Assembly (NCBI GenBank): GCA_900318775.1
Contig: ONLY01000006.1
Span: 1 to 64,000, forward strand
Source of the DNA: an uncultured Prevotellaceae bacterium
GTDB taxonomy: Bacteria > Bacteroidota > Bacteroidia > Bacteroidales > Bacteroidaceae
Direction of reading: 5' to 3'
DNA length: 64,000 nt
The stretch's first letter is position 1, and each line of letters begins with the position of its first letter. Below the pieces are notes generated by a model that made no database searches, was not told the DNA's origin, and saw nothing but the letters and a program-made list of their open reading frames with translations. The position numbers and the translations under genes were made by a program. This document shows, piece by piece, positions 13,278 through 14,937 of this stretch.

Positions 13278-13877
13278 ATGCTATATGGATTAGCTCATGT
13301 GGTACAGGCTCGCATGCCGTGGATATGGGATGTGGTGGAGTCAATCAATGCATTCGTATGTGGATGGAAAATAGGGAATAGAAATCATCTGCAAGAATGC
13401 ATGACGCATGGTGTCCGCATGGCGGACGTCAATGATGCGGGGCGTTTAGCAGACTTTTTTGTACGTCAGCCAGAAGAAAGTTTCCGATGGTTCCGTCCTC
13501 ATGCATTTGATGAGAAAACGCTGAGAAAGTTATTGGAACGGAAGTCTTACCTCATTTTTGTGTTGGAGGAAGAAGGTGAAATAGCAGGGTATGCTTTCTT
13601 GCGCTGTTTTGCAAATGGAAAGTCATTCTTGGGGAAGATGGTGGATGTGAATCATCAAGGGAAAGGCATTTGTACCAAGTTGTGTGCTGTCGGCATGAAT
13701 ATAGCTGTTAAAACAGGATTTCGGATGTTCGAGAGCATCAATAAAGAGAATGTCGGTTCAATGAAGGCGAGTCAGAAGGCTTGTGATGTGCTTGTGGTGG
13801 AGGAATTGGATAATGGTGATTTGTTGATAGAGGATAAGCCTCGTAAGAATGATTCTCCCACGAATTTGACGAATTGA
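13278..13877 (+). CDS. GNAT-family N-acyltransferase
   Basis: 199-aa protein with a GNAT core: acyl-CoA-binding loop in VDVNHQGKGICTKLC (Q/R-x-x-G-x-G-like) and FESINKENVGSMKASQKA near the C-terminus. I chose the ATG at 13278, two bases after the preceding stop; an ATG at 13251 would overlap that gene. It may acylate an amino sugar of the polymer. Oddity: the final codons (SPTNLTN) and the stop are supplied by the left arm of the first palindromic repeat at 13857-13883, so the native C-terminus has probably been replaced. Confidence 0.78.
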   Translation: MLYGLAHVVQARMPWIWDVVESINAFVCGWKIGNRNHLQECMTHGVRMADVNDAGRLADFFVRQPEESFRWFRPHAFDEKTLRKLLERKSYLIFVLEEEGEIAGYAFLRCFANGKSFLGKMVDVNHQGKGICTKLCAVGMNIAVKTGFRMFESINKENVGSMKASQKACDVLVVEELDNGDLLIEDKPRKNDSPTNLTN

Positions 13878-14139
13878 ACGAATAAGAGAAAATAAGTTGT
13901 AATTGCTATCAGATAGTGTCTGCATGGAAAAAATCGTATGATTCGTTCAATTCGTGGGTGATGCAAAAGAAGAAGTATGATTTCCCCACGAATTTGTCGA
14001 ATTGAACGAATAAGAGAAAAGAAGTTGTAATTGTTATCAGATAGTGTCTGCCTGGGAAAATTCGTATAATTCTTTCAATTCGTGGGCGATGCAAAAGAAG
14101 AAGTATGATTTTCCCACGAATCTGGTGAATTAAACGAAT
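13857..14139. repeat. Family III palindromic repeats, copies 1, 2 and a half copy 3
   Basis: Each unit has a left arm CCCACGAATTTGTCGAATTG followed by AACGAAT, a 50-65 base spacer, and a right arm ATTCGTTCAATTCGTGGG that is its inverted complement. Copy 1: arms 13857-13883 and 13933-13958. Copy 2: 13985-14011 and 14060-14086. Copy 3 has only a left arm, 14113-14139, and is followed by the GxxExxY gene. Units are separated by a conserved linker containing GATGCAAAAGAAGAAGTATG. Copies 1 and 2 share one spacer type (with ATCAGATAGTGTCTGC). Confidence 0.9.
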
Positions 14140-14154
14140 TGGAAAAATTGTGAT

Positions 14155-14556
14155 ATGGGATATAGTGTAGATAGACTAAAATACAAGGAAGAAAATGACT
14201 TGAGCTATACTATCATAGGTGCAATCTATGATGTGTATAATAGACTCGGACCAGGATTGTTGGAAAGTGTTTATGAGTCCGCCTTGACTTACGAGTTAAC
14301 GAAAAAAGGTTTGAAGGTTGATAGACAAGTTGAAGTGCCGATTTTATACGATGGAATTCAGATTGAAACGAACTTGCGATTGGATGTATTGGTTGAAGAT
14401 TTAGTGATAGTTGAATTGAAATCTGTTTTAGAAATGAAAGATGTCTTTTATCTACAGATTGATACATATCTGAAACTGACAGGAAAGCATCTCGGACTTC
14501 TGGTTAATTTTAATACTGATGATATTGTTCATTCAATCCATCGTCGTGTTAAATGA
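14155..14556 (+). CDS. GxxExxY protein (PD-(D/E)XK nuclease-like)
   Basis: 133-aa member of the GxxExxY family. The signature is seen as GLLESVY near residues 39-45. A PD-(D/E)XK-like core follows: LRLDVLV with the acidic residue and IVELKS with the E-x-K pair near residues 79-90. The family's function is not established to my knowledge; a nuclease fold is predicted from these residues. It sits between a half unit (14113-14139) and a full unit (from 14565) of the family III palindromes, 15 bases after one and 8 bases before the other, and has no relation to polysaccharide synthesis. It may be the gene that mobilises or processes these repeats. Confidence 0.85.
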   Translation: MGYSVDRLKYKEENDLSYTIIGAIYDVYNRLGPGLLESVYESALTYELTKKGLKVDRQVEVPILYDGIQIETNLRLDVLVEDLVIVELKSVLEMKDVFYLQIDTYLKLTGKHLGLLVNFNTDDIVHSIHRRVK

Positions 14557-14564
14557 GATATTCT

Positions 14565-14937
14565 CCCACGAATTTGTCGAATTGAACGAATCATAAAGAA
14601 ATTCGATGCGTATTCTGTTTGGTGTGATAAGCAGTCTGCAAAGATAAATTCGTATGATTCGTTCAATTCGTGGGTGATGCAAAAGAAGAAGAATGATTTT
14701 CCCACGAATTTGTCGAATTGAACGAATAAGAGATAAGAAGTTGTAATTGTTATCAGATAGTGTCTGCCTGGGAAAATTCGTATGATTCGTTCAATTCGTG
14801 GGCGATGTATAAGAAGAAGTATGATTTCCCCACGAATTTGTCGAATTGAACGAATCATAAAGAAATTCGATGCGTATTTTGTTTGGTGTGATAAGCAGTC
14901 TGCAAAGATAAATTCGTATGATTCGTTCAATTCGTGG
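14565..14937. repeat. Family III palindromic repeats, copies 4-6
   Basis: Copy 4: arms 14565-14591 and 14648-14674. Copy 5: 14701-14726 and 14776-14802. Copy 6: 14829-14855 and 14912-14937. Copies 4 and 6 share a second spacer type (with GATAAGCAGTCTGCAAAG), while copy 5 has the spacer seen in copies 1 and 2. Types therefore alternate b-a-b here. The array ends 33 bases before the ATG of the phosphosugar transferase, so it also forms that gene's upstream region. Confidence 0.9.

Follow-up and report, generated by a model that had tools for sequence, protein, structure and literature searches.

REPINs are thought to use RAYTs in trans. In the REP/RAYT systems called 'REPtrons', a single enzyme gene lies between small palindromes of inverted orientation, and every copy of the gene is matched by a repeat class of its own; gene-less doublets are dispersed, and tandem clusters adjoin the gene (PMC3116915). 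The palindromes are GTAG-tagged hairpins, and the enzyme, RAYT (TnpA-REP), is a Y1 HUH transposase. A comparable layout is that of the 23S rRNA intervening sequence, where a small S23p ORF stands between inverted arms; S23p elements classically lie inside rRNA and are removed by RNase III. In the intervening sequence of Coxiella, heptameric repeats precede the S23p ORF (PMC4990558). Genes of the GxxExxY family are found in a layout that recalls both, and they encode a protein unrelated to either.

The DNA analysed here (the window) is a stretch of 64,000 nucleotides from an uncultured Prevotellaceae bacterium (GenBank assembly GCA_900318775.1, contig ONLY01000006.1, positions 1 to 64,000). A sequence-only reading of it had described five full units and one half unit of an inverted repeat around a single GxxExxY gene, and direct reading together with a repeat search located all of them at 13857-14937, on the plus strand like the gene. 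Full units are approximately 100-110 bp long and contain no gene. Unit 1 (13857-13958; left arm 13857-13883, right arm about 13934-13958) and unit 2 (13985-14086; arms 13985-14011 and 14060-14086) both have a spacer of type A. They are followed by the half unit, a left arm only (14113-14140) with the degenerate iterons CCCACGAATCTGGTGAATTAAACGAATT, which stands immediately 5' of the 133-aa gene (14155-14556), as had been claimed. The 8-base gap reported after the gene is also there: the stop codon ends at 14556, and unit 3 (14565-14674; spacer type B, arms 14565-14591 and 14648-14674) begins at 14565. Unit 4 (14701-14802; type A, arms 14701-14727 and 14776-14802) and unit 5 (14829-14937; type B, arms 14829-14855 and 14912-14937) complete the array, the latter forming its right border. 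Two spacer types therefore exist, as the reading had noted, but they do not alternate throughout, the order being A, A, half unit, gene, B, A, B. The arms are CCCACGAATTTGTCGAATTGAACGAAT and ATTCGTATGATTCGTTCAATTCGTGGG, each with three CGAAT iterons spaced about 9 nt apart, and a 222-nt block recurs in the array with 93% identity, far above chance expectation. The array's first arm reaches into the final codons of an upstream GNAT ORF. The neighbouring genes, which encode glycosyltransferases, an NTP transferase, an epimerase, LicD, GNAT, a sugar transferase and a DegT aminotransferase, are those of a surface-polysaccharide cluster, in agreement with the capsule setting first proposed.

Two further PF13366 genes of the same genome, L002 and L003, are flanked on both sides by repeats of other types, AATCCG at L002 and CATTAATT at L003. 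Their difference from the window's repeats gave the first hint that every gene is paired with a cognate repeat. The same genome also contains a dispersed one-sided repeat, GAGGCTCCCATTCGTGCCATTCGTNCCATTCGTGGGCGTTCC, with common flanks at L283, L284, L286, L014, L016 and L017, of which a single arm is evident.

Cassettes and units have been gained or lost between congeners. The site that the array occupies in the window is plain intergenic DNA of 40-100 bp in ten congeners. In the close relative G034 a single gene-less unit is present there and the gene is missing, and in G027 the order is three units, a half unit, the gene and one unit. G034 also lacks precisely the 654 bp that make up the L002 cassette and its two flanking units. 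Between the window's genome (G000) and G027 the units differ by a few percent, spacers included, at pS values of 0.68-0.75 for the flanking genes and 0.50 for the GxxExxY gene; such near-identity means either recent spread or homogenisation of the units, or strong constraint on them. When G000 is compared with G034 (L227), pS shifts sharply across the array, from 0.58 in the left flank to 0.16 in the right, which suggests that the repeats mark a recombination breakpoint. L003-type units number about 12 in G034, where no gene was detected, although its assembly breaks at that locus. In a further genome, G010 (L228), the window's intergenic position holds a palindrome with another iteron, AGTAAAT, as found at the GxxExxY gene L076.

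The window protein matches PF13366 (PDDEXK_3; 134 bits, E=3e-39, curated cut-off 22) and TIGR04256 (136 bits, E=6e-40, curated cut-off 35) above both cut-offs. TIGR04256 is its sole TIGR match, so that the gene does not encode S23p (TIGR02436). The nuclease fold that the sequence-only reading had assigned to it is borne out by prediction: the AlphaFold model (pLDDT 94) has Cas4 SSO0001 as its top fold match (Z 9.2), followed by assorted PD-(D/E)XK nucleases, among them Hjc, the Cas4-like R354 and MGME1, and the predicted fold is thus Cas4/RecB-like. A search by sequence found no solved structure. The D, ExK and QxxxY motifs typical of Cas4/RecB-family nucleases are kept, and E37, Y40, D77, E87, K89, Q101 and Y105, like the G, E and Y of the motif that names the family, are invariant or nearly so in alignments of 21 and 40 sequences. 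In contrast to Cas4, the 133-aa protein contains no cysteines for an Fe-S cluster, its identity to Cas4 is about 18%, and its neighbours are capsule genes with no cas genes nearby. Between species dN/dS is 0.03-0.17, which indicates strong purifying selection. A nuclease fold encoded in a variable capsule region could point to anti-phage defence, but we consider this very improbable, as PADLOC returns only sub-threshold similarity to Cas4 (E 0.01-0.05) and the loci of the family are scattered, single-gene and placed inside housekeeping operons.

It is in the enzyme that the analogy with REP/RAYT, drawn by the earlier reading, does not hold. No Y1 (HUH) transposase (PF01797) was found in the window's own genome, and the window gene itself belongs to PF13366. 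Furthermore, the arms consist of tandem 9-nt iterons starting with CCACGAAT, CCACAGA and similar sequences, GTAG/CGTC-tagged REP hairpins are absent from the arms that were read directly, and the copy numbers seen for GxxExxY repeats are far below those of REP or REPIN sequences. The analogy stands for architecture and for co-evolution of protein and repeat: GxxExxY genes have the inverted cognate palindromes that define a REPtron, a repeat class of their own and gene-less copies of it.

The arrangement is not peculiar to the window. About 110 PF13366 genes are spread over 35 of 45 genomes of the genus, and the family occurs in 120 of 247 genomes of a phylum sample; presence is patchy, with 0 to 7-10 copies per genome, and relatives exist in Chloroflexi, Acidobacteria, Phycisphaerae, Hydrogenedentes, Treponema and others. 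Carriage by phages or plasmids was considered and rejected: no occurrence was found in viral contigs or phages, and the eight plasmid records were all typed as non-mobilizable. When 450-bp upstream and downstream flanks were compared with each other for 67 genes of the genus and for 245 control ORFs from the same loci, the median inverted-repeat score was 28.5 for the genes and 12.5 for the controls (p=5e-16; direct repeats, p=8e-6), and for 73 Bacteroidales genes it was 23 against 11.5 (p=2e-23). Outside Bacteroidota significance was modest among the nine genes tested (direct p=0.01, inverted p=0.06), and examples from Chloroflexi, Hydrogenedentes and Treponema have clear arms such as ATCCACAGATGAACACAGATGAACACAG. 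In a larger set of 174 genes, picked on the protein alone, a hexamer occurring at least twice upstream and at least twice reverse-complemented downstream, within 130 bp, was found at 93 genes; the control ORFs gave 11 such cases in 482 and the shuffles 1 in 910. The family therefore does not usually lack nearby repeats, an outcome that would have told against the sequence-only reading. By local alignment, repeats matching between the two sides of the gene, whether inverted or direct, are significant at 60% of 172 genes, as against 4% of controls; set against 173 controls with intergenic DNA on both sides (other repeats included), the figures were 27% and 6%. About 40% of the genes are repeat-free by these tests.

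Printed alignments show arms in which two to five iterons of 9-10 nt follow one another in tandem, with opposite orientation on the two sides of the gene, and autocorrelation of the flanks exceeds that of controls at lags of 9, 10 and 18 nt. The core of the iteron varies by lineage (CGATAATT, CAATAATT, ACGGATT, ACAGATT, ACGAATT, ACAGAAA, CACGGAG, AAATCT). Its polarity is fixed: the CRRAK strand reads towards the gene 49 times and the opposite way 5 times. The earlier reading had also expected arms and genes to occur together, and a generic three-iteron pattern is indeed commoner where the gene is present (45 of 120 genomes) than where it is absent (19 of 127; Fisher p=4e-5), a comparison confounded by phylogeny because one family dominates the gene-negative genomes. 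The sites of this pattern numbered 156 in gene-positive and 33 in gene-negative genomes (28 and 13 for the reversed pattern), and at least three sites were present in 15 and 1 genomes, respectively. In Marinilabilia salmonicolor (L179, L180) several near-identical GxxExxY genes lie inside about 10 kb, apparently through local duplication of the cassette.

Many GxxExxY genes of rumen Prevotella sit between korA and korB, a position where cassettes can be compared across genomes. The junction is unbroken over ~20 bp in most matching genomes of the genus and is split by an insert in 12; two of these inserts are not GxxExxY, that of G036 being an S23 gene and that of G019 gene-less. Across 39 cassettes at this site the arms have cores CGAATT, CGGATT, CAGATT, AAGATT or CAAATT. 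With arm types labelled by six hexamers, which were picked after inspection, left and right arms match within a cassette in 87% of cases, compared with 37% after permutation. Arm type changes 6 times on the protein tree, fewer than in any of 2000 shuffles (mean 13.3), and 12 times on the kor tree (shuffled mean 13.3, p=0.15). Distances between the proteins do not correlate with those between the kor genes (r=-0.01), and the association between arm and protein given kor is significant by a partial Mantel test (p=0.0008). As arm type follows the protein tree and the protein does not follow kor, gene and arms have been replaced jointly, independently of the flanking host genes, in a turnover of whole cassettes at a fixed site. 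Arm similarity also tracks protein identity among non-syntenic genes (rho 0.35, p=0.001). This co-evolution strongly supports the idea that the nuclease recognises the iteron arms of its own cassette, presumably by binding them.

Within the protein, residue 17 (window 14203-14205) is Thr in 19 of 21 cases with iteron type C.GAT and Ser, Ala or Val in 28 of 30 with C.AAT, in several lineages. Joint changes of residue and iteron type make up about 3.6 of 5 independent pairs, with hardly any in the opposite direction (p=0.125); the residue was picked out of many columns and is not significant after correction, so that as a candidate specificity residue it offers a lead only.

The turnover at korA-korB bears on two other explanations. 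One holds that the system is resident and non-selfish, the arms being operators or processing sites of a conserved nuclease that serves autoregulation, replication or repair, or chromosome structure. Strong purifying selection, the many orthologues at fixed operon sites such as korA-korB, and the near absence of the family from plasmids and its absence from phages would all agree with a host function. We nevertheless think it unlikely, given the patchy presence of the family, the empty sites in most congeners, the lack of correlation between protein and host trees at the kor site, and the different arm types carried at orthologous positions. The other is a homing-like gene conversion, where the nuclease would cut alleles at a preferred chromosomal site and repair would copy the cassette from the homologue. 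Free-standing homing endonucleases are likewise single nuclease genes with precise presence or absence at a fixed site, which is what repeated turnover at the exact korA-korB junction and its precise empty sites look like. However, the conserved repeats, which are the recognition candidates, belong to the cassette, and the empty site has no matching sequence, so that a homing enzyme of this kind would cut itself. The co-conversion gradient is also weak: the correlation of flanking kor windows with the protein is 0.14 (p=0.018) in the adjacent 150 bp and then stays near 0.05. Homing is accordingly quite improbable.

The insert of G036 at the korA-korB site (L277:615-984) carries its S23 gene (PF05635/TIGR02436) between inverted (AATTAAG)n arms, and it is not an isolated case. 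In the genus, the flanks of 30 S23 genes (L297-L326) show autocorrelation peaks at lags of 7, 14 and 21 nt, and at 20 of these genes inverted hexamers are common to both sides. These 7-nt arms fit the heptameric repeats of Coxiella. Dozens of dispersed 7-nt tandem repeats (TCAACTGTCAACTG, ATGTCTAATGTC) were also noticed in the window's genome and its close relative, on the L245/L002 and G034 contigs; they are probably S23-type arms or their remnants. S23/TIGR02436 is a four-helix-bundle protein, not a nuclease and unrelated to GxxExxY. A nuclease is thus dispensable for the inverted-iteron architecture, since a non-nuclease family has the same layout. No other observation weighs as heavily against a model driven by the nuclease alone, and a common machinery might move both kinds of cassette. 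Host recombination or some other enzyme acting in trans could in that case move the repeats, with GxxExxY as a passenger or accessory that binds the arms and does not cause their movement; the occurrence of both families at korA-korB (S23 in one genome) and of gene-less units where the gene is undetected would be accommodated. We regard such an origin as unlikely. Arm type goes with the protein rather than with the host, and the protein therefore has a say in which arms persist; moreover, the catalytic residues are invariant and dN/dS is low.

The S23 parallel, known from rRNA intervening sequences (PMC4990558), also brings in an element acting at the RNA level, whose arms would pair in the transcript and be processed, with the ORF in the loop. 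Although GxxExxY cassettes lie inside operons in the transcribed direction, they differ from S23p elements in occupying intergenic regions between protein genes, and Rfam gave no rRNA match in the window region or at 20 other loci, by which a position in rRNA genes was discarded. Mismatches between arms have no G-U-compatible bias (168 versus 182, p=0.49), a result that gives no support to selection for an RNA hairpin. We give this explanation hardly any credence.

Together, the inverted, matching repeats that change along with the protein make the GxxExxY elements look like a widespread, undescribed selfish class. We propose, with a probability of roughly 0.6, that the window locus is a member of such a class of minimal selfish cassettes, in which a nuclease specific for its own arms works in the manner of REP/RAYT with an unrelated enzyme. 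The cassette consists of left arm, GxxExxY gene and right arm, and its gene-less derivatives, which would accumulate next to the gene and elsewhere, of left arm, spacer and right arm. The small Cas4/RecB-like nuclease may bind its own arms as several molecules, each protomer occupying one iteron, and join left and right arms as a hairpin or synapse. The enzyme may then cut or trim at the paired arms, and in this way drive the movement of the repeats: host repair or replication would copy the unit locally, giving arrays, or re-insert it at other intergenic sites. Gene-less units would be served in trans.

Several observations weigh against the selfish cassette. Close relatives of the protein mostly keep the same site, as under vertical inheritance and unlike an active transposon, and no movement was observed. 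Terminal inverted repeats and gene-less derivatives are shared with MITEs and small insertion sequences, but GxxExxY cassettes have no known transposase, no integrase or transposase partner was seen with them, and comparison of filled and empty sites at the kor, L002 and window loci, with flanks too diverged for the purpose, gave no clear target-site duplication. The S23 layout, the repeat-free genes and the G034 units with no detected gene count against it as well. A wider version of the selfish cassette can be put forward tentatively, in which GxxExxY proteins would be the mobility nucleases of an undescribed, phylum-spanning group of minimal mobile elements that end in 9-nt iterons and are moved by a lone Cas4/RecB-like nuclease, with no known transposase. 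The 7-nt cassettes of S23/TIGR02436 would form a parallel class built on the same principle, and many common environmental repeats (ATCTGTG..., CTCTGTG..., ATTCGTG...) would be non-autonomous copies of such elements.

The earlier reading knew of no established function for GxxExxY, and we found none in the open-access literature, where two papers name the family; the one examined mentions it only in passing, in connection with another subject. For this large and common family, cognate iteron arms that co-evolve with the protein provide a first lead to its role and a testable substrate. They also offer an explanation for short repeats that are very common in environmental genomes, and they bring an unexpected kind of nuclease into the small group of enzymes linked to repeats. 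The parallel with S23 is relevant to a long-standing question, the means by which rRNA intervening sequences spread.
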